A stretch of 33,897 nt of DNA from Gammaproteobacteria bacterium (lineage in GTDB: Bacteria > Pseudomonadota > Gammaproteobacteria > SZUA-140): contig JAKISP010000045.1 of NCBI GenBank assembly GCA_021648525.1, positions 1 to 33,897 on the forward strand. Direction: 5' to 3'. Shown here in pieces: positions 7,727-33,568 of the stretch. The first letter of the stretch is position 1. Every line of letters begins with the position of its first letter. The notes under the pieces are model-generated. The model was given only the letters and a program-made list of their open reading frames with translations, was not told where the DNA came from and made no database searches. Made by a program: the position numbers and the translations under genes.

Positions 7727-8431
7727 CTATATGCGCCAGTTAAAGTTAGCACGTTCAACTTGTTTTAGAACGACACGAACCAATTTTAGTCGCTCAGGAT
7801 AAATTGCTTCTTTTTCCGCATTTTTAGCGTTAAAAATGGAAAAAAACAGTGATTTTGATGCCTTTCTTTTATCAGTGAATCGAAACTTTATGCCGGCTTT
7901 TGAATGGCTCTTTGAAAGGAGTCGACTGAGCACTCTGACACCATCGTTCAGGAGCTGACTGTCACTCGGTGGTGCAATCGGGCTTTTAACAACGGTACTA
8001 TCGATACGGAGTTTTTTGAGATTGATATCGCCTTTTGCAAGCCAGCTTACTGACAGCATGACATGGATGCTTTCTAGCGTTTCTGGTTTTATGCTGCGAA
8101 TGGTTGACTGTAAGCATGACCGGCTGGGTGACAGATCACGGGGTAATCGTGCGAATGTGCGATAAGTCATAGAATCGGACAAATGGAACGAAAGCTGCTC
8201 ATAGCTGATACGAAGTTTCTGTTTAAGCAGTAAGCATCGAAAGATACTTTCAACACTTAGGCCATTGCGCCCAACCTTTTTCACGGACTCGTCACGTAAA
8301 TCCTTTTCAATCAACGGCAGTATTTCAGTGTGCTGATCCAGAATACAAGATAGTGTTTTAAGTTGAACACCAAACTCGTGTTCTGAGTAGTTTTCGAATA
8401 AACTGGCCTGGGTTATGCGGGTGAGTCGCAT
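7727..8431 (-). pseudogene. Truncated DDE transposase (ISNCY/IS5-like), N-terminal half
   Basis: The 234 residues match the N-terminal half of transposases that begin with a DUF772/InsH-like domain. GRNGLSVESIFRCLLLKQ and HLSDSMTYRTFARLP are typical, and IDSTVVKSPIAPPSDS contains the first catalytic aspartate. Related full-length proteins are roughly twice as long and carry further catalytic acidic residues. Here the frame ends in an unrelated tail (NFNWRI), so the gene is cut and cannot be active. The exact family (ISNCY group or an IS5 relative) is a judgement by eye. It marks the left edge of the insertion-sequence graveyard. Confidence 0.82.
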
Positions 8432-10736: not shown

Positions 10737-11744
10737 ATGTCTGTAAATGATCTATTAACACAGGATGAGATTGATGCGCTGCTGCATGGTGTGACTGGCG
10801 GCGATATTGAATCTGAAGATGATGATGTGCTGGATGATGGCTCGGCACATGAATACGATTTTAATAGTCAGGACAGAATTGTTCGTGGGCGTATGCCCAC
10901 GTTGGAGATGATCAACGAGCGTTTTGCACGCCACTTCCGCATTAGTCTTTTCAATATGCTGCGTAGAACAGCTGAAATTTCTGTCGGTAGTGTTCAGATG
11001 TTGAAGTTTGCAGAATACGTGCATAGCCTTTTTGTGCCAGCAAGTCTGAATCTTGTAAAAGTTGAACCATTACGAGGCACTGGATTATTCGTATTTGATC
11101 CCAAGCTGGTTTTTACAGTGGTAGATAATTTTTTTGGTGGTGAAGGAAAATTTCATGCCAAGATTGAGGGGCGTGAATTCACACCAACTGAGCAGCGTAT
11201 TATTCAACTGATGCTTGATCTGAGCTTTAAAGACATGAAAGAGGCATGGAATCCAGTGTTGCCAGTTGAATTTTCTTTTCAGGGAATGGAGGTGAATCCT
11301 CACTTTGCCAATATTGTGAGTCCAAGTGAAGTAGTGGTGGTGACTACATTCCATATTGAACTGGATGGGGGCGGTGGGGATCTTCATGTAACGCTGCCAT
11401 ATTCAATGGTAGAGCCTATTCGAGAGTTATTAGATGCGGGTGTGCAGAGTGACCGTGATGACAATGATGATCGTTGGTCGATTTCCCTGATCGAAGAAAT
11501 TAAAGAGGCGGATGTGGAAGTGAGTAGTGTTTTGACCGAGACTGAAATCACACTCAATGACCTTAACGCGCTTAAGGTAGGTGACATTATCCCGATTGAT
11601 CTGCCAGAAAAAGTGACGATTAGGGTTGAAGATATACCGGTATTTCGAGGGAATTTTGGCATTTCAGATGGAAAAAATGCAATAAAAATTACAGAGCGTG
11701 TAGTGGCTGAGAGTTCGAAACAGCTGAAAACAGTGATGGGGTAG
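10737..11744 (+). CDS. fliM: Flagellar motor switch protein FliM
   Basis: The 335-residue protein forms the C-ring together with FliN and FliG and receives phosphorylated CheY. Its N-terminal CheY-docking peptide is clear (LLTQDEIDALLHG, residues 6-18). A CheC-like middle domain follows (for example VFTVVDNFFGGEGKFHA), then a C-terminal SpoA domain from about residue 255 (VSSVLTETEITLNDLNALKVGDIIPID). The length is normal. A GTAGGG site precedes the ATG, and fliN follows after 5 nt. Its N-terminal peptide is the reference for the motif copies seen in CheA and CheZ of this window. Confidence 0.98.
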   Translation: MSVNDLLTQDEIDALLHGVTGGDIESEDDDVLDDGSAHEYDFNSQDRIVRGRMPTLEMINERFARHFRISLFNMLRRTAEISVGSVQMLKFAEYVHSLFVPASLNLVKVEPLRGTGLFVFDPKLVFTVVDNFFGGEGKFHAKIEGREFTPTEQRIIQLMLDLSFKDMKEAWNPVLPVEFSFQGMEVNPHFANIVSPSEVVVVTTFHIELDGGGGDLHVTLPYSMVEPIRELLDAGVQSDRDDNDDRWSISLIEEIKEADVEVSSVLTETEITLNDLNALKVGDIIPIDLPEKVTIRVEDIPVFRGNFGISDGKNAIKITERVVAESSKQLKTVMG

Positions 11745-20844: not shown

Positions 20845-21237
20845 TTGGATAAAGATATGAAAATACTCATTGTGGATGATTTTTCTACAATGCGGCGAAT
20901 CATAAAAAATCTCTTGCGAGACCTTGGTTTTAATAATACCTCTGAGGCTGATGATGGTAATACGGCCTTACCGATGTTGCAGTCAGGGAACTTTGATTTT
21001 CTTGTGACAGACTGGAACATGCCGGGAATGGAAGGCATTGACCTGTTAAAGGCTGTACGCGCCGATGAAAAATTAGCGAATCTACCGGTACTGCTGGTGA
21101 CGGCTGAAGCTAAGAAGGAGCAGATTGTTGAAGCCGCTCAGGCGGGCGTGAATGGCTATGTGGTTAAGCCATTTAATGCTGCTACGCTGAAAGAAAAAAT
21201 AGAGAAAATTTTTGAGCGAATTGAGGCATCACAGTAA
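20845..21237 (+). CDS. cheY: Chemotaxis response regulator CheY
   Basis: The 130-residue single receiver domain shows D11-D12 in [12 protein letters not shown], the phosphoacceptor D56 in [11 protein letters not shown]86 in [10 protein letters not shown] and K108 in GYVVKPF. It carries the signal from CheA to FliM and is dephosphorylated by CheZ. The start is a TTG at 20845, which has GGGAGG with 6-nt spacing. The next in-frame ATG (20857) would be too far from that site. cheZ follows within 7-25 nt. Confidence 0.98.
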
Positions 21238-21261
21238 AAATCCATGGAAGGAGATGCAGAG

Positions 21262-22008
21262 ATGGCATTCAGCGAATCAATATTAAGTGAACAATGCCTG
21301 GTGCAGGCACGGGGCCTGGTCAGTAGTATAGAAAATGGATGTGAAGATGCTGCGATTGGGCATCTACGAGAGATTAGTCGTATCAATGAAACTAAAATGT
21401 TTCAGGAGATTGGACGGCTAACACGTGAACTTCACGACACGTTAGTTGGCTTTGGTATCGAAACTGATATATCAGACCTTGCTGAACATGAAATTCCGGA
21501 TGCAAGAGAGCGTCTTAATCATGTGATTAAGGTGACTGATCAAGCGGCACATAAAACATTAACCGCTGTTGAAGACGCGATTCCTGTCTGCCGAGAACTA
21601 GAAGAGAGTGCATCAAAGATAGAAGATCAATGGAAGCGTTTTATATCTCGCGATCTGTCGGCGGATGAATTTCGTGAACTATCGCGCGAAATTGGTGAGC
21701 ATCTGGAGGTCTCCTCAGACCGTTATTCAAAGATTAAAGCGTACCTGAATGATATTTTGATGGCGCAGGATTTTCAGGATATTACGGGTCAGATTATTCG
21801 CAGGGTCATCGGTCTAGTGCAAGATGTTGAAGATAAGTTGATTGGCTTGATTAAAATTTCAGGCAGCTTTGGTAATGATGATAACAGGTTAGAAAGAAAG
21901 CCGGCTGAAAAAGTACTAGAGGGGCCTCAAGTACCCGGAAAAGAGAGTGCAACTGCGTTGAAAAATCAGGATGAGGTTGATGACCTGCTCTCAAGCTTAG
22001 GATTCTAG
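21262..22008 (+). CDS. cheZ: CheY-P phosphatase CheZ
   Basis: The 248-residue helical protein has the CheZ signature ILMAQDFQDITGQIIRRVIGL, here noted as AQDFQDITGQ, where the phosphatase glutamine lies. It ends with the CheY-binding tail NQDEVDDLLSSLGF at the very C-terminus. The frame is open from an ATG at 21244. The ATG at 21262 follows AAGGAG with 8-nt spacing and is preferred. cheA follows after 7 nt. Its tail resembles the FliM N-terminal peptide and the CheA linker repeats of this window. Confidence 0.96.
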   Translation: MAFSESILSEQCLVQARGLVSSIENGCEDAAIGHLREISRINETKMFQEIGRLTRELHDTLVGFGIETDISDLAEHEIPDARERLNHVIKVTDQAAHKTLTAVEDAIPVCRELEESASKIEDQWKRFISRDLSADEFRELSREIGEHLEVSSDRYSKIKAYLNDILMAQDFQDITGQIIRRVIGLVQDVEDKLIGLIKISGSFGNDDNRLERKPAEKVLEGPQVPGKESATALKNQDEVDDLLSSLGF

Positions 22009-22015
22009 TGATAAT

Positions 22016-24106
22016 ATGGCGATCGATACAGATGATGAAATCCTGCAGGACTTTCTTGTAGAGGCAGATGAAATACTTGAAAAACTCGGTGAACAGCTGG
22101 TTGATCTTGAACAGAGCCCTGAGGATTCCGAGCTACTGAATGCTGTTTTTCGCGGCTTTCATACCATTAAAGGGGGGGCTGGATTTTTAGCTCTGACTGC
22201 ACTGGTAGAAGTTTGTCATCATGCAGAAGATGTTTTTAATATTTTAAGGCAAGGGGAACGCGTAGTTGATGCACCCTTGATGGATGCCTTTCTGCGCGTG
22301 ACCGATAGCGTAAATGATATGTTTGGTGAAGTAAGAGAGGGTATTGATCCAGCACCTGCTGATCCTGAGCTAATCGAAACGCTAAAACGCTTTCTTTCTG
22401 GAGATGAAGAGCAGGCGCCAGCTCCCGAATTAACGCCTGAGCCTGTTATTGAAGCGCCTGCTGCTATCCCTCCTTCTGATGGTGGTGAAGAGATAACGGA
22501 TGATGAATTTGAATCATTGCTGGATCAATTGCACGGTGGTGGCACACCAAAGGCTGTTAAGCCTGATGCGCCAATGGCCACCGATAGTGCCGCTGATATA
22601 AATGGTGCTTCGAATGATGAAATCACCGATGATGAATTTGAATCATTACTTGATCAACTGCACGGTGGTGGCGCACCTAAAGCCGTTGATTCTGGCGTGC
22701 CAGCAGTGGGAAAAAAAGCGCACACATCAGTAGATGGTGGGTTAATTACTGATGGTGAATTCGAAGATCTGTTAGATGAATTGCATGGTAAGGGTGGAAT
22801 GACGAAGGCTGCTGTGCCTGCTGAAAATTCATCTGCAGGGAAAAAAGAAGCACAGCCCACAGCAAAGGTTGAGCCAGTTGTTAAGCCTCCCAAACCTGCA
22901 CCAGCTAAAGCTGCAGTGAAAAAGAAAGAGAATTCACCTGCACAGGCCGAGACGACGGTGCGTGTTGACACTAAACGTCTTGACGACATTATGAATCTCG
23001 TGGGTGAGCTGGTACTCGTTCGAAACCGACTGTCGACATTAGAATCCACCAAATCTGATGAAGCGATGACACAGGCAGTCGCAAACCTTGATCTGGTGAC
23101 CACCGATCTTCAAAATTCTGTGATGAAAACAAGAATGCAACCGATCAAAAAAATATTTGGTCGTTTTCCTCGTGTGGTACGTGATCTTGCGCGAAGCCTG
23201 AAAAAAGAGGTTGGTCTTGAGTTGATTGGAGAAGAGACTGATCTTGATAAAAACCTTGTTGAAGCGCTTGCTGATCCACTTGTGCATCTGATTCGTAATT
23301 CCGTTGACCACGGTATTGAAATGCCTGATGTCCGCGAAAAAGCGGGTAAGGATCGTGCTGGCGCTGTTGTGTTGTCGGCTGCACAGGAAGGCGATCATAT
23401 CTTATTAACGATCGATGATGATGGCGCTGGAATGGATGCTGATAAATTAAGAAGTATTGCGGTTAGCAAAGGGCTATACGATGAAGATACGGCGGCAAGG
23501 CTTGATGATAAAGAGTGTTTTCACCTGATATTTCTGCCTGGTTTTTCAACAAAAGAAGAGATTTCTGACATATCAGGCCGCGGAGTCGGGATGGATGTGG
23601 TTAAGACGCGTATCGCTCAGCTCAATGGTTCGATTGACATTGACTCTGAAATGGGTAAGGGCAGTCGAATTGCAATTAAACTACCGTTAACGCTCGCGAT
23701 CATGCCGACGTTAATGGTGTTACTTGAAGAACAGGTTTTTGCGTTGCCATTAGTGAGTGTGGTTGAAATATTTAATCTCGACTTAACTAAGTCAAAGGTG
23801 GTCGACGGACAACCCGTTGTGTTAATTAGAAACAAGGCATTGCCTATTTTCTATTTAAGAGAGTGGCTGATTAAAGGCGCAAGCCGAAGCGAAGAACAAA
23901 AAGAGGGGCATGTTGTTGTTGTTAGTTCTGGTGCTCAGCAAGTCGGTTTTGTTGTTGATCAGTTAATTGGCCAGGAAGAGGTGGTGATCAAGCCACTCGG
24001 GTCTATGTTGCATGGTACACGCGGATTAGCGGGTGCGACAATCACAGGGAATGGGAAAATATCACTGATCCTGGATGTACCAGAATTATTAACTGCATAC
24101 GCATAA
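22016..24106 (+). CDS. cheA: Chemotaxis histidine kinase CheA with three linker repeats
   Basis: The 696-residue kinase has an N-terminal Hpt domain with H49 in FRGFHTIKGGAGFL. A long linker (about 130-315) follows, then the dimerisation domain (from about 316), the ATPase domain with the N-box LIRNSVDHG (N428), and a C-terminal CheW-like domain. No globular CheY-binding P2 domain is evident. Instead the linker holds three copies of a motif, EITDDEFESLLDQLHGGG (159-176), the same at 202-219, and LITDGEFEDLLDELHG (243-258). These resemble the FliM and CheZ CheY-docking peptides. The rest of the linker is rich in Ala, Pro and Lys. Confidence 0.98.
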   Translation: MAIDTDDEILQDFLVEADEILEKLGEQLVDLEQSPEDSELLNAVFRGFHTIKGGAGFLALTALVEVCHHAEDVFNILRQGERVVDAPLMDAFLRVTDSVNDMFGEVREGIDPAPADPELIETLKRFLSGDEEQAPAPELTPEPVIEAPAAIPPSDGGEEITDDEFESLLDQLHGGGTPKAVKPDAPMATDSAADINGASNDEITDDEFESLLDQLHGGGAPKAVDSGVPAVGKKAHTSVDGGLITDGEFEDLLDELHGKGGMTKAAVPAENSSAGKKEAQPTAKVEPVVKPPKPAPAKAAVKKKENSPAQAETTVRVDTKRLDDIMNLVGELVLVRNRLSTLESTKSDEAMTQAVANLDLVTTDLQNSVMKTRMQPIKKIFGRFPRVVRDLARSLKKEVGLELIGEETDLDKNLVEALADPLVHLIRNSVDHGIEMPDVREKAGKDRAGAVVLSAAQEGDHILLTIDDDGAGMDADKLRSIAVSKGLYDEDTAARLDDKECFHLIFLPGFSTKEEISDISGRGVGMDVVKTRIAQLNGSIDIDSEMGKGSRIAIKLPLTLAIMPTLMVLLEEQVFALPLVSVVEIFNLDLTKSKVVDGQPVVLIRNKALPIFYLREWLIKGASRSEEQKEGHVVVVSSGAQQVGFVVDQLIGQEEVVIKPLGSMLHGTRGLAGATITGNGKISLILDVPELLTAYA
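22490..22816 (+). repeat. Three tandem-spaced linker motifs within cheA
   Basis: Coding repeats at 22490-22558, 22619-22687 and about 22742-22816 encode the motif [TD]-x-D/G-E-F-E-x-L-L-D-x-L-H-G with 41-43 residue spacing. The first two encode 22 of 23 identical residues while their codons differ at several wobble positions. The similarity is therefore kept at the protein level and is not a very recent duplication. The stretches between the copies are unrelated and poor in hydrophobic residues. Confidence 0.85.
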
Positions 24107-24126: not shown

Positions 24127-25194
24127 GTGACTGTTCGTGTACTTGTTGTTGATGATTCTGGGTTTTTCAGGCGCCGCTTGACGGAAATATTGAATTCAGA
24201 CCAGCATATAGATGTAGTTGGATATGCTATTGATGGTGCACAAGCGATCATAAAAGCAAGGGAACTGCGCCCGGATGTGATTACAATGGATATTGAAATG
24301 CCGGTGATGGACGGCATTACGGCTACAAAAAAAATAATGGCGGAGGTTCCTACGCCAATTCTAATATTTTCATCATTAACGACGAGTGGTGCAAAGTCTA
24401 CATTTGATGCGCTTGATGCGGGGGCTCTTGATTTTCTACCGAAAAAAATTGATGACATTTCTAGTGAACTGGATATTACGCGGCGTTTGTTGTGTGCACG
24501 AGTCAGGGTGCTTGGCGCCAGAGGACTAGCGATTAAAGAAGAGGCTTCATATACCGCTTCTTCCCGTACTTTAGCGGCATCAAGTACGATACGTGAAAGT
24601 CAGAGAAATGCGGGATTTGATTTAAACAAGATTAAGCTGATTGCTATTGGAACTTCAACCGGTGGGCCCGTCGCGTTACAGAAAATCTTAACCGCAATGC
24701 CTGATGATTTTCCTGTACCGGTAATCATTGTCCAGCATATGCCGGCCAGTTTTACTCCGTCATTTGCTGAGCGCCTCGACTCTTTATGTAAAATTAAAGT
24801 TAAGCAAGCCGATCATGGAGATGAAGTTAAAGCGGGAGTCGCCTATATTGCGCCCGGCGGCGTACAGATGATGGTTGACAGATGTGGCAGTCGCTTGCTG
24901 TTAAAGATTGAAGAAGCAAAGCCTGGTCAGACATACCGGCCAGGTGTTGATATTACATTTTCATCACTTGCCAGGGTTTGCTCATCTGAGCTGCTGGCGG
25001 TGGTCCTGACCGGTATGGGGGCAGACGGAAGAGAGGGTGCGCGCTTACTTAAGCAACGTGGTGCAACTATCTGGGCGCAGGATGAACAGAGCTGTGTTGT
25101 TTACGGGATGCCGATGGCGATTGTTGACGCTAATCTGGCAGATGAAATTTTATCACTCGATAAGATTTCTTCATTATTTAGCGGGGAGGAATAA
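24127..25194 (+). CDS. cheB: Chemoreceptor glutamate methylesterase CheB
   Basis: The 355-residue protein has an N-terminal receiver domain with phosphoacceptor D55 (ITMDIEMPVMDG). The C-terminal methylesterase domain has its triad at S177 (IGTSTGGP), H204 (IVQHMPASFT) and D300 (TGMGADGREG). It demethylates or deamidates chemoreceptors for adaptation. The start is a GTG at 24127 with AGAGG 7 nt upstream. It lies 20 nt after cheA and 3 nt before motC. No cheR is in the window, so the partner methyltransferase must be elsewhere. Confidence 0.98.
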   Translation: MTVRVLVVDDSGFFRRRLTEILNSDQHIDVVGYAIDGAQAIIKARELRPDVITMDIEMPVMDGITATKKIMAEVPTPILIFSSLTTSGAKSTFDALDAGALDFLPKKIDDISSELDITRRLLCARVRVLGARGLAIKEEASYTASSRTLAASSTIRESQRNAGFDLNKIKLIAIGTSTGGPVALQKILTAMPDDFPVPVIIVQHMPASFTPSFAERLDSLCKIKVKQADHGDEVKAGVAYIAPGGVQMMVDRCGSRLLLKIEEAKPGQTYRPGVDITFSSLARVCSSELLAVVLTGMGADGREGARLLKQRGATIWAQDEQSCVVYGMPMAIVDANLADEILSLDKISSLFSGEE

Positions 25195-25950: not shown

Positions 25951-27144
25951 ATGGCACGTAAACCAAAACATGAAGAACATGAAAATCATGAGCGCTGGTT
26001 AGTCTCGTATGCGGATTTTATTACCCTGCTATTTGCTTTCTTTGTCGTGATGTACTCAGTTTCTTCCGTTAATGAAGGAAAATATCGAGTATTGTCTGAT
26101 GCTATTGTTGCTGCATTTCAACAGTCACAGAAATCATTGAAACCGATTCAAATTGGTCAATCAGCTCGCTCAGCACAGTCTGCAACTCTTGAATTTAAAG
26201 ATACAGCTAACCCAATTAAAGTGCCTGAAGGTCCTTTGAGTCATCCATCTCGTGCCAATAAACATGAAGGAGATAATCAGGAAGACGAAGTTGATTTTTC
26301 TGAATTTCCGATGGCGAATGAGCGAATGTTGAAAGAGGGGGATAGTAGTGATGACGATCAATCTGCGGTAGATCAACAAGGCTTATCTGAAGCCCAGTTA
26401 AGAATGATTGCAAATGAAATTGAAGCGGCGATGCAACCGCTAATTGATCGTGATTTAATCTCGGTTAAGCGTACTAAGCGCTGGATTGAGGTTGAAATCA
26501 ATACGGATATTCTTTTTACGAGTGGTAGCGCAAAAATTCAGCTCCAGTCAATACCTGTATTAGAGGCGCTTTCACGTATTCTTGCCGCCTTTCCAAATGA
26601 CCTGCGGGTTGAAGGGTTTACTGATAACGTGGCTATTAAAAGCACTGTATATCCCTCTAACTGGGAACTTTCTGCTGCACGTGCTGCGAGTGTTGTGCGG
26701 CTTTTTTCTGTTCATGGCATTGAGCCTGAAAGAATGGCGGCGATTGGCTATGGGGAGTTTCGTCCGCTAATGAGTAACGAAACTCTGGAAGGGCAGATTA
26801 AGAATCGTCGTGTGATGGTGGTAATTACTGCTAATCGAAATATGAAGCGCCCTAAGTCCGAAGAGGAAGAAAAAATAGCAGAACCTGAAGATGACATCAT
26901 TGATGTAGAGACTGAGATCGCTGATGCAGAGACTGATACGCGTATCAATAGTGATTTTTTAAGGCTTGATGCGTTGATTGATTCATCAGGACTACATCGC
27001 ACCGCCCCTGTATCAGTGGACGAACTGTTGCCATTGGAAACCACAGTGCCGGGTTCATCACTGATATCACCTGTCTGGATTCCTGGGGTTAATATAAAAG
27101 ACTCACTTTCTGCTCCATTAGGTTTGTCGTCAGGGGGAGAGTAG
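25951..27144 (+). CDS. motD: Flagellar stator protein MotD (MotB family) with long C-terminal tail
   Basis: The 397-residue protein has one membrane helix (about 17-38) with the ion-binding D22 in WLVSYADFITLLFAFF. A variable acidic linker follows, then an OmpA-like peptidoglycan-binding domain (about 190-290: VEGFTDNVAIKS and ELSAARAASVVRLF). About 100 more residues follow: a stretch rich in Glu and Asp, then a Ser/Pro tail. That is longer than MotD of Pseudomonas. Its stop overlaps the parC GTG by one base (TAGTG), so coupling is likely. It anchors MotC to the cell wall. Confidence 0.95.
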   Translation: MARKPKHEEHENHERWLVSYADFITLLFAFFVVMYSVSSVNEGKYRVLSDAIVAAFQQSQKSLKPIQIGQSARSAQSATLEFKDTANPIKVPEGPLSHPSRANKHEGDNQEDEVDFSEFPMANERMLKEGDSSDDDQSAVDQQGLSEAQLRMIANEIEAAMQPLIDRDLISVKRTKRWIEVEINTDILFTSGSAKIQLQSIPVLEALSRILAAFPNDLRVEGFTDNVAIKSTVYPSNWELSAARAASVVRLFSVHGIEPERMAAIGYGEFRPLMSNETLEGQIKNRRVMVVITANRNMKRPKSEEEEKIAEPEDDIIDVETEIADAETDTRINSDFLRLDALIDSSGLHRTAPVSVDELLPLETTVPGSSLISPVWIPGVNIKDSLSAPLGLSSGGE

Positions 27145-27929
27145 TGCGCATCTGGGCGGTTGCTAATCAGAAGGGTGGTGTTGGTAAGACCACCACCGCA
27201 GTGACGCTGGCGGGGTTATTATCACAACAGGGGCATCGTGTATTGTTAGTTGATATGGATCCGCATGGTTCGATGACCTCATATATGGGTTATGACCCGG
27301 AAGGAGATGGGAGTAGCCTTTATAGCCTGTTTCATGGCGGTAGTGGTCCTGTTGATGAGATGATTCGTAAAACGCAGTGTAAGATGATCTCTATTTTTAC
27401 CGCATCAACGGCATTAGCGACGCTTGATCGACAGCTTGGCACACAGGATGGTAAGGGGTTGGTGATTGCACGCGGCCTGGCACAGGTAAATGATGATTAT
27501 GATTATGCCTTACTGGATTGCCCGCCAACACTGGGTGTATTGATGGTCAATGCGCTGGCCGCCTGCCATTACCTGATTGTACCTGTTCAATCTGAATTCC
27601 TTGCGCTAAAAGGACTTGAGCGCATGATGCGAACGATTTCGATGATGAATCATGCACGTATGCAGCCGATCCCATACCTGATTGTCCCAACCCTTTTTGA
27701 TCGTCGAACGCGAGCTTCTGGGCAGGCGTTAGATAATATGAAAGAACGCTATCCTGAAACATTATGGAATGGGATTATTCCAGTCGATACACAATTTCGT
27801 GAAGCGAGTCGCGCGGGGCGTCCTGTGTCATTACTCTCACCTCGCTCGCGTGGTTCCCTTGCGTATGATGAACTATTGCAGGATTTACTGGTCTTTGATT
27901 TACCCGGTTCCAGGGCTAAAACAGGATGA
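27144..27929 (+). CDS. parC: ParC-type ParA ATPase for polar chemoreceptor arrays
   Basis: The 261-residue ParA/Soj-type ATPase has the deviant Walker A motif QKGGVGKTTT (residues 9-18), LLVDMDPHGSMTSYMGY and the LLDCPPTLGVLMVNAL block. In Vibrio and Pseudomonas the gene in this place, next to a CheW-like partner, positions chemotaxis arrays at the pole (ParC, with ParP). It is not a chromosome-partition gene here because no parB follows. It starts with a GTG overlapping the motD stop and overlaps parP by ATGA. Confidence 0.9.
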   Translation: MRIWAVANQKGGVGKTTTAVTLAGLLSQQGHRVLLVDMDPHGSMTSYMGYDPEGDGSSLYSLFHGGSGPVDEMIRKTQCKMISIFTASTALATLDRQLGTQDGKGLVIARGLAQVNDDYDYALLDCPPTLGVLMVNALAACHYLIVPVQSEFLALKGLERMMRTISMMNHARMQPIPYLIVPTLFDRRTRASGQALDNMKERYPETLWNGIIPVDTQFREASRAGRPVSLLSPRSRGSLAYDELLQDLLVFDLPGSRAKTG

Positions 27930-28594
27930 ATGACAAAAAATCACGACCCCTTGTGACACAGGGAAAGGCTTTAACACAATACCTGGATTCACTTCTAATG
28001 GAGGTTTCCGAGGAGGTTGACGTTGATGTTTCTGCCGATGTGATTGATAAAATTGATGTGATGCCGGAAGTGGCAGTTTCATCGCAAGTTGAAGTTCAGG
28101 CTGTTGTTGATAGCGTAGATCAAATCCCAGAGTGGGGGATGGCTCCATTTAAAGCACTCTTTTTCAATGTCGGTGATACGACTCTGGCTGTGCCGCTTGA
28201 AAAACTCAGCGGTATATTGACTGAGTGTGACGATATTAAAGTGATGCCGGGAAACGCTAAGCGTTACCTCGGCGTGTTGGTGCACCGTGGTAAAACGATT
28301 AGAGTGATCGATTTTGAAGCCCTGGTGACTGAGCTAAGTGGTGAGCCTCGGGTGCTATCAAGTGGTGAGGTTTTACCCCCCAATCGTATTATATTGATTG
28401 AAGGTGAGCGAATTGGCATTGCCTGTCGAGATGTGACTGACGTTGAAGAGATTAAGACGAATGATGTACGTTGGCGTGTTGGGTCCACTAAACGTCCCTG
28501 GTACCGGGGAATTGTGGTGGAGAAAATGTGTGCGCTGCTTGATGTTGATGCGCTGTTGTTATTGTTGAACGATGATGCTGAAGGAACACTCTGA
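27926..28594 (+). CDS. parP: ParP-type CheW-domain array protein
   Basis: The 222-residue protein has a short N-terminal segment (LTQYLDSLLMEV), a variable linker, and a CheW-like domain (about 72-215). That domain holds FKALFFNVGDTTLAVPLEKL, YLGVLVHRGKTIRVIDF and RIILIEGERIGIACRDV. In Vibrio, ParP binds ParC and the localisation domain of CheA and integrates into arrays. Coupling to parC by an ATGA overlap and the position before cheW support this role. The N-terminal part is shorter than in Vibrio, so the interaction with ParC is inferred by context. Confidence 0.87.
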   Translation: MNDKKSRPLVTQGKALTQYLDSLLMEVSEEVDVDVSADVIDKIDVMPEVAVSSQVEVQAVVDSVDQIPEWGMAPFKALFFNVGDTTLAVPLEKLSGILTECDDIKVMPGNAKRYLGVLVHRGKTIRVIDFEALVTELSGEPRVLSSGEVLPPNRIILIEGERIGIACRDVTDVEEIKTNDVRWRVGSTKRPWYRGIVVEKMCALLDVDALLLLLNDDAEGTL

Positions 28595-31847: not shown

Positions 31848-32120
31848 CTAGATGTTGTATTTCCCAGATATGATATAAGCAAAAGCGATGACCTGCGCGA
31901 TGGTGATATAGAGGGCACGTGGGATCTCGTCGCCCAGTTCAAGCTGGGATAGTAGCTGTACTAACTCTGCATCTTCATGTAGGGGGATGTTGTTTTCTTC
32001 GGCAATCTTCAATATTTCTTCGCCGATATGGCCTCTGCCCCTGGCTGTTATGGTGGGTGCATTTTCGCCATCGTACATTAAGGCGACGGTGGTGATCTGA
32101 TCTGCTTTGTCTGTTTTCAT
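31848..32120 (-). CDS. Stand-alone FlhB C-terminal domain protein (FlhX/FhlB-like)
   Basis: The 90-residue protein aligns with the part of FlhB that follows the cleavage site. TTVALMYDGENAPTITARG matches the FlhB stretch YAVALKYD...APIVVAKG, and NNIPLHEDAELVQLL and PRALYITIAQVIAFAY match the rest. It lacks membrane helices and the NPTH motif. Such proteins (COG2257 type, called FlhX in some species) can contribute to the substrate-specificity switch. It overlaps the FliK-like gene by ATGA on the same strand, which couples a ruler protein with a switch-domain protein. Confidence 0.92.
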   Translation of the reverse strand: MKTDKADQITTVALMYDGENAPTITARGRGHIGEEILKIAEENNIPLHEDAELVQLLSQLELGDEIPRALYITIAQVIAFAYIISGKYNI

Positions 32121-33568
32121 ACGCGTGTATCCACTAGTAATGTGTGTCGCTGTTGACGAGGTGGTGCTGGCGGAGAGCCGTGCTGGCAGTTGATTTCATC
32201 GGAACTAACCCCGTGTTCATCAAGGGCATCTCGTAATAATTGTAAATTATTATCAATCAACTGGACTGTGCTTTCCTCATCAGCCCAGAGTGTGGTTGAG
32301 GTCTGCTCCCCTTGAACCGTGATCGTTGCATAGATAGTGCCTATTGCAGGTAGATCTAGTGTAAGTGTAATTCGCCAGCGTGAATCTTGTTCTTCACCTT
32401 CTTCAGTGTCCTCTTTTTCAATGCGTAACTGCACAACATCTATATTTTCACCGTTACGCAACGGCAGTTCAAAGGCCCATGATTGTGACGTATTACTGTC
32501 CTGTGGCATCGATGCAAGCTGACTTAGTTGTACACGCGCAATACTGCTCTCTGATTGACGGATTAGCTCGTCGATAATCTGGTCTCGATGCTGGAGTAGA
32601 ACAAGCGTTGGTGATTGTGTCTTTTGAGGCTGTAGTGGCAAGTGCCGAAAAAAAGGAACTGGAATGCGACTGCTCGAAGTGGTTAGTTCAGCCAGGCGTG
32701 ATGGTGCTGTAGAACGTGTGCTTTCTTCTCTGCTGATTCTGTTTGAAGGGGTATTTAACAAACGTAGTAATTGTTCTTTGACTGACAGGTTAGGCGTTGT
32801 GTGTGGTTGACGAGTGTTACTGCTCGTGTTTGGTATGATACTAGCGTCTTGTGTGGTTAGCGGCAGTGGGATCTTCGAAGAGGGGCTCTGGTGGCTGGCG
32901 GGAGCTTGTCGCAACAAGCCCAGTAACTGTACCAGATTTGCTTTGAAGTCCTGGCTGACAGCTTGTGCCTGTGACGTGGTTGATGAGGTTCTATTGGCCG
33001 GTGTTGTGGTAGTCTGAGCTTGTTGAAGGTTTGCGAGCTTTTTTTCAAGCAGAATACCTGAATCGAGAATCGCCTGACGTAGCGCTTTTGGGTCGCCAAC
33101 TTTATCGATATGCGTAATATTTTCGATCAATTTTCTTACACTGTTGCTAATTTCTGGCGTTAGTGGGGAAGTCAACTGCGTTTTTAATTGTGAAATTGCT
33201 GAAAGGTTGGCAAGTAGTGGTGTCAGAGGGGCTTGTTTAGGTAATAATATCTTCAGTGCGGCATTTTGTACTGATCTGGATTGCTGTGTTGTGAGTAGTA
33301 GTGGCGGGGCAACTCGTAGCAAAGGTTTATCTCCCGTACGTACTACTGTTAATGTGAGTGTTTCCCCGTTCTGGTGTTGTTTAGCGGTTGGTGCTTGCAG
33401 CAGAGTGTTACCAATACGTAATTTAACACTGTTTTTCAGGCTTTCGATCACCACTGCTTTTAGTGTCTGCCCTACCTGCAATGAGCGAGCGGTGGCTTTT
33501 TGCTGAGTCGCCGTTTGAGACGTCGCGGTGTGAGGTGCTGGAGTGGGTGGGTTATTTTTGATTTCCAT
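32117..33568 (-). CDS. fliK: FliK-family flagellar hook-length control protein
   Basis: The 483-residue protein has an N-terminal domain of about 90 residues with QVGQTLKAVVIESLKNSVKLRIGN. A long Thr/Ser/Pro/Gln-rich middle follows, as expected for a secreted ruler. The C-terminal Flg_hook domain (about 370-455) has WAFELPLRNGENIDVVQLRI, and RWRITLTLDLPAIGTIYATI, cited in parts. FliK measures hook length and triggers the FlhB switch. It is paired with the FlhB-like protein and sits at the far end of the cluster instead of upstream of fliL. It could be the only fliK or a paralogue, since other flagellar genes are outside the window. Confidence 0.85.
   Translation of the reverse strand: MEIKNNPPTPAPHTATSQTATQQKATARSLQVGQTLKAVVIESLKNSVKLRIGNTLLQAPTAKQHQNGETLTLTVVRTGDKPLLRVAPPLLLTTQQSRSVQNAALKILLPKQAPLTPLLANLSAISQLKTQLTSPLTPEISNSVRKLIENITHIDKVGDPKALRQAILDSGILLEKKLANLQQAQTTTTPANRTSSTTSQAQAVSQDFKANLVQLLGLLRQAPASHQSPSSKIPLPLTTQDASIIPNTSSNTRQPHTTPNLSVKEQLLRLLNTPSNRISREESTRSTAPSRLAELTTSSSRIPVPFFRHLPLQPQKTQSPTLVLLQHRDQIIDELIRQSESSIARVQLSQLASMPQDSNTSQSWAFELPLRNGENIDVVQLRIEKEDTEEGEEQDSRWRITLTLDLPAIGTIYATITVQGEQTSTTLWADEESTVQLIDNNLQLLRDALDEHGVSSDEINCQHGSPPAPPRQQRHTLLVDTRV

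Follow-up and report, generated by a model that had tools for sequence, protein, structure and literature searches.

The P2 domain of CheA (Pfam families PF07194 and PF09078) is a single folded domain located between P1 and P3, and it is proposed to keep the response regulator concentrated near P1. CheY and CheB are both ligands of P2, and a survey found P2 to be missing from more than half of CheA proteins (~52%), even though it used HHpred, which was needed to find most P2 domains because the Pfam P2 models are insensitive (PMC10542144). Away from the kinase, FliM and CheZ bind one common face of CheY (PMC3774744, citing earlier work).

A second described element lies in the same linker between P1 and P3. 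This is the CheA localization and inheritance domain (LID) of Vibrio, which was reportedly defined by Ringgaard in 2014. The LID is the segment of the linker that is bound by Vibrio ParP, and it is said to occur solely with ParC and ParP (PMC5706961, PMC7534058).

Chemotaxis in Pseudomonas, Vibrio, Shewanella and numerous further gammaproteobacteria is driven by CheA of the F6 class. One member of this class is encoded on a gammaproteobacterial contig of 33,897 nucleotides, the whole of which is referred to here as the window. In this major CheA class a repeated short motif, which is real, universal and CheA-specific, takes the place of P2.

The chemotaxis operon and its CheA

The window contains a polar-flagellum and chemotaxis operon in which fliM is followed further along by flhF, flhG, fliA, cheY, cheZ, cheA, cheB, motC, motD, a gene for a ParC-like ATPase, a gene for a ParP-like CheW-domain protein and cheW (Table 1). 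The order cheY-cheZ-cheA-cheB-motCD-parC-parP-cheW is that of the F6 class, and a distance of 3 kb separates cheA from the ParC- and ParP-like genes downstream of it. The CheA protein has the domain order P1, P3, P4, P5 of F6-type flagellar CheA and is ~50-80% identical to members of the class. Its P1-P3 linker of ~200 residues holds three copies of a 14-residue motif with the shared form I-T-D-x-E-F-E-x-L-L-D-x-L-H-G. Repeats 1 and 2 are the product of a DNA duplication, with 81% identity over 88 nt at a spacing of 129 nt.

Table 1. Positions of the features discussed in the text, numbered from the first nucleotide of the window
Feature	Position	Strand	Residues	Description
fliM	10737..11744	+		CheY-binding peptide at the N-terminus, DLLTQDEIDALLHG, with which the repeats are compared; N-terminus MSVNDLLTQDEIDALLHG at 10737
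cheY	20845..21237	+		Proposed ligand of the repeats; F6-type face residues Q94, V103, N104, K117 (E. coli numbering)
cheZ	21244..22008	+		C-terminal CheY-binding tail NQDEVDDLLSSLGF at 21964-22005
cheA (F6-type)	22016..24106	+	P1/Hpt aa 8-100, linker ~aa 110-312, P3 aa 313-372	Followed by P4 and P5; no P2 (Pfam, AlphaFold)
Repeat 1	22496..22537	+	aa 161-174	TDDEFESLLDQLHG; predicted helix 552-562 of fusion chain
Repeat 2	22625..22666	+	aa 204-217	TDDEFESLLDQLHG; predicted helix 595-606 of fusion chain
Repeat 3	22748..22789	+	aa 245-258	TDGEFEDLLDELHG; predicted helix 636-646 of fusion chain
cheB	24127..25194	+		Directly 3' of cheA; possible secondary ligand of the repeats through its receiver domain
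parC-like ParA ATPase	27144..27929	+
parP-like gene	27926..28594	+		Probable ParC-binding N-terminus (YLDxLL), CheW-like AIF domain; LID partner and main rival ligand

Conservation and specificity of the repeat

The window CheA was used as a query against 369 genomes of the same class, which contained ~130 members of the CheA class. From these genomes 120 CheA loci, mostly of the F6 class, were fetched, together with 80 named loci including those of Pseudomonas, Stutzerimonas, Vibrio, Photobacterium, Shewanella, Marinobacter and Xanthomonadales. At least one repeat is present in 152 of the 154 gammaproteobacterial class members, those of Pseudomonas, Vibrio, Photobacterium and Shewanella among them, and of the two exceptions one gene is truncated and the other N-masked. 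Copy number ranges from one to eight, with three the commonest, and the copies are spaced by a median of 41 residues (5-95% range 29-56).

The consensus of 429 copies reads I (85%), [TS], [DE], [DE], E (96%), F (99%), [ED], A (52%), L (88%), L (98%), D (90%), x, L (81%), H (65%), G (75%). In a 20-row alignment E207, F208, L212 and L215 (L128 numbering) are invariant, on a par with catalytic residues. Chance is excluded as an origin of the repeats since they are conserved across the CheA class. The strict pattern [DEA]EF[DE]x[LM][LI]D has 325 matches in the CheA reading frames of all the fetched loci and none in ~2.1 million residues of non-CheA reading frames from the same loci. When the DNA form of the pattern was searched in five whole genomes, all 14 matches fell inside cheA, as checked against the cheA coordinates. 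The repeat is a universal and CheA-specific mark of the F6 class.

Some members of the class depart from the usual form. Eight repeats occur in the CheA at locus L096 (genome G033), whose linker runs to ~577 residues and includes a long PAAAPAK tandem tract, and the CheAs at L086 (G192) and L099 (G297) carry longer repeats, for instance three copies of EGVDPDGEITDDEFEALLNQRD, in which the FliM-like half is kept and D-x-L-H-G is lost. Searches of PDB sequences with the short peptides gave chance matches only, and no description of these CheA repeats was found in the open-licence literature.

Absence of a P2 domain

Pfam matches P1, P3, P4 and P5 in the window CheA and leaves P2 unmatched, as it does in the Vibrio, Pseudomonas, Shewanella and Dyella homologues. 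Neither PF09078 nor PF07194 has a match at any F6-class CheA locus among the 369 genomes, and both families do match other CheAs and named control genomes. Moreover, no match emerged when 80 linkers of the class were set against P2-like domains, profile to profile. For AlphaFold2, CheY, CheZ and residues 1-325 of CheA were joined as one read-through chain, the first run being shallow. The prediction contains no folded domain in the linker of the window CheA, where a globular P2 would occupy ~65-80 residues; the linker is disordered save for three separate helices, which coincide exactly with the repeats. The possibility that a P2 domain had been overlooked by Pfam is ruled out by the whole-genome searches, the profile-profile comparison and AlphaFold taken together.

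The statement of the first-pass annotation, which was made from the sequence alone, that the window CheA has no globular P2 holds by all these approaches and can be extended to the whole CheA class. Structure prediction, named there as the place where a P2 might come to light, shows none in the linker. The genome to which the window belongs also encodes a second, E. coli-like CheA, which has no repeats and contains a P2-like domain in its linker. This domain falls below the Pfam reporting limit and was recognised from its resemblance to other CheAs with P2. Whilst P2 is one folded domain, the F6 proteins have between one and eight short helical motifs set in disorder, without sequence or profile similarity to P2.

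Likeness to the FliM and CheZ peptides

The first-pass annotation had aligned the three linker motifs with the FliM N-terminus and the CheZ tail encoded in the window; the sequences are as it quoted them and the likeness is confirmed. All three repeats are predicted helices, amphipathic and with an E-hydrophobic-[DE]-x-L-L core. The FliM N-termini of 29 genomes vary little around the pattern L-[ST]-Q-[DE]-E-[IV]-D-A-L-L. The repeat consensus I-[TS]-[DE]-[DE]-E-F-[ED]-A-L-L fits this pattern at each position, down to the Ser/Thr cap and the hydrophobic residue that precedes it, so that the two have hydrophobic-[ST]-x-x-E-hydrophobic-[DE]-A-L-L in common. CheZ tails read Q-D-[ED]-V-D-D-L-L-S-S-L-G-F, and the L-L-x-x-L continuation of the repeat fits their V-D-D-L-L-S-S-L stretch, the common form being E-hydrophobic-[DE]-x-L-L-x-x-L. 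The closest pairs come from Vibrio and Photobacterium, where the first CheA repeat, ITQDEF[ED]xLL, stands against LTQDEIDALL in the FliM of the same organism.

Scored against shuffled linkers at p<0.05, 93% of F6-class linkers match the FliM profile and 90% the CheZ profile, compared with 14-33% and 0-36%, respectively, in other CheA groups. The repeat nevertheless differs from both peptides. Unlike the FliM peptide it has Phe for Ile/Val, carries an extra D-x-L-H-G tail, is repeated and lies inside a kinase; unlike the CheZ tail it is not at the chain end, has Phe for Val and lacks the terminal G-F. The CheZ tails themselves vary at this position in a group made up mostly of Xanthomonadales (L135-L138, L189, L208, L222), where they read D-A-D-D-L-L with Ala for the usual Val, and FliM keeps Ile where it was read.

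ParP, CheB and CheZ as possible partners

The reading of the linker as a set of docking sites in the first-pass annotation left out its overlap with the LID (Alvarado 2017, PMC5706961), which occupies the same linker in the same CheA class, usually with ParC and ParP genes nearby. Given that Vibrio ParP binds a segment of this linker (PMC5706961, PMC7534058), and that ParC- and ParP-like genes occur in the operon of the window and at most repeat-bearing loci, the repeats could be the LID or part of it, binding the AIF domain of ParP and so anchoring the array at the pole by way of ParC, with no docking of CheY. The LID is described as confined to ParC/ParP systems (PMC5706961), whereas the repeats also persist without them. 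At least seven near-complete genomes of several families (G192, G297, G010, G170, G022, G025, G154) have neither ParC nor ParP and keep the repeats or their core in recognisable form, and G001 gives the same picture at 91% completeness. Absence of ParC here means that the ParC search finds only a protein like chromosomal ParA (~34% identity, 120-150 bits, like the ParA of the window genome itself), and absence of ParP that the ParP profile yields scores at the CheW level only. The LID cannot be the whole story, and is ruled out as the sole explanation, because these genomes retain the repeats. The motif, moreover, resembles the CheY-binding peptides of two unrelated proteins, and a role in ParP binding without CheY docking is unlikely. 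The repeats bear on the real nature of the LID; in the open-licence LID papers neither a repeat motif nor a link to FliM or CheZ was found.

The manner in which the repeats persist without ParP is not uniform. G192 and G297 keep the core EF[ED]xLL but have lost the D-x-L-H-G half (ITDDEFEALLNQRD, ITDEEFELLLQMRE), and in G025 the repeats are degenerate. A refinement of the CheY-docking proposal is suggested by the retention of the core in ParP-less lineages, by the loss of the second half in G192 and G297 and by the multivalency of the repeats, namely that all of them dock CheY and that ParP additionally reads some copies or the D-x-L-H-G half. However, G010, G170, G022 and G154, which are also without ParP, retain L-H-G or L-Y-G, making the split unclean. 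Such dual use is a serious possibility, if a less than even one.

CheB was allowed as an alternative to CheY in the first-pass annotation. P2 domains bind CheB as well as CheY (PMC10542144) and cheB directly follows cheA in the window, yet five genomes of 95-99% completeness (G154, G297, G220, G103, G151) have no CheB domain and keep the repeats or their core. These genomes rule out CheB as the sole partner and make docking of its receiver domain in place of CheY very improbable indeed. CheZ is ruled out as the sole partner in the same way, as CheZ is absent from G101, G170, G022 and G148, in which the repeats are kept. At L128, L129 and L139 (G170, G022 and G148) cheY directly precedes cheA and there is no CheZ in the genome.

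Since genomes without them keep the repeats, ParC, ParP, CheB and CheZ are each dispensable for repeat retention. At every locus whose upstream part is present and intact, cheY was found next to cheA. By elimination CheY appears to be the best candidate for a universal partner, being the sole tested one that is not dispensable, and of the two ligands named in the first-pass annotation it is the favoured one. The elimination points to CheY only jointly with the likeness to FliM and CheZ, because CheA itself, CheW and the receptors are also universal. The universality of CheA leaves room for a role within the kinase, where the repeats would fold back on P1, P3 or P4, or would be acidic helices of a generic kind that position P1. 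The near-invariance of E, F and L-L in a fast-changing linker, together with the variable copy number and spacing, is easier to reconcile with peptides that dock independently than with packing inside the molecule, and an internal role is quite improbable.

A proposed CheY dock

Judged from sequence, the repeats are probably, by a modest measure, multivalent docks for CheY, FliM- and CheZ-like helices in a CheA without P2, a reading that allows additional use by ParP. The repeats would be short docking motifs in a disordered linker, each forming a helix upon binding CheY, presumably on the alpha4-beta5-alpha5 face that is used by FliM and CheZ. Docking would concentrate CheY beside the phosphohistidine of P1 and so speed phosphotransfer, the repeats doing multivalently what the globular P2 does elsewhere. 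The repeats of the kinase would also compete with FliM and CheZ for CheY, and the use of some copies by ParP as well would be compatible with CheY docking. The earlier proposal that the repeats replace P2 in this way is supported in part: the absence of P2, the multivalency and the likeness to FliM and CheZ hold class-wide, and its steps to CheY binding and to competition between kinase, phosphatase and motor keep a conditional form.

Several observations on CheY are supportive only. On their docking face, CheY proteins of the F6 class conserve Q94, V103, N104 and K117 (E. coli numbering). Their betaproteobacterial counterparts have N94, A103, S104 and mostly D117, with no difference in the FliM and CheZ peptides. 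The substitutions R92K, Q94N and V103A, which face P2, arose when this CheY type joined a P2-bearing CheA (PMC7184735). CheA3 and CheY3 of Shewanella oneidensis are a positive two-hybrid pair (PMC7666153), and the Shewanella homologues in the present sample have the repeats and no match to P2. The face signature, the three substitutions and the two-hybrid pair would each also fit common descent, or binding through P1 alone.

There are also difficulties for the CheY-docking proposal. In the fusion chain neither the repeats nor the CheZ tail, which served as the positive control (pLDDT 41-47), docked confidently on CheY; in the second run CheY and P1 had pLDDT above 90 and the repeats 66, 72 and ~44 (range 43-72). 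With its positive control failing as well, this model carries no weight for or against docking. Phe takes the first hydrophobic position in 99% of copies, a position filled by Ile/Val in FliM and CheZ, and the D-x-L-H-G tail is conserved beyond the needs of FliM-like binding. FliM and CheZ peptides prefer phosphorylated CheY. This preference is the opposite of what a phosphotransfer dock needs and counts against docking, as does the overlap of the linker region with the published ParP-binding LID. With a defined motif of 10-14 residues, CheY recognition by P2-less CheA can be tested with peptides and point mutants.

Other CheA classes without P2

Conserved islands are also seen in other linkers that lack P2. 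Those of betaproteobacterial CheAs (L191, L192, L194, L201, L204, L218) contain PDWxALYxALTG, which is like VDALLKGVTG of betaproteobacterial FliM, and a second island, FGRRxxDxPG...GRR. The first of these is possibly a convergent CheY dock; when its extension was sought with a betaproteobacterial CheA query, only more distant CheA classes were reached. In Campylobacterota (L188, L190, L193, L207) the island is YxxMSxEEVEAEIERLLxxRQ in one or two copies, with a core, EIERLL, that resembles EIDALL of FliM; against shuffles this island gave no significance with its four sequences.

It is tentatively suggested that P2 is one of several solutions, and that P2-less CheA classes may dock CheY by class-specific motifs that convergently copy the other ligands of CheY (EFEALLDxLHG in the F6 class of gammaproteobacteria, DW[DE]ALYxAxTG in betaproteobacteria and EIERLL in Campylobacterota), so that kinase, phosphatase and motor would compete via one peptide language. 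If the CheY-docking proposal is true, there would be one CheY-recognition code common to all three.

Further features of the window

The ParP N-terminus, in the window protein and in the alignment, contains a nearly invariant helix, A-L-x-x-Y-L-D-x-L-L-x-E, which from its sequence is probably the ParC-binding site. The AIF part of ParP is poorly conserved, with 16-36% identity overall. Two further reading frames were identified by eye, both on the minus strand. A transposase-like one (7727-8431) has housekeeping genes on both sides and lies upstream of the flagellar operon. The other, of 90 residues and like the C-terminal domain of FlhB, adjoins a FliK-like gene (31848-33568); it is situated downstream of the che operon and on the opposite strand to it.
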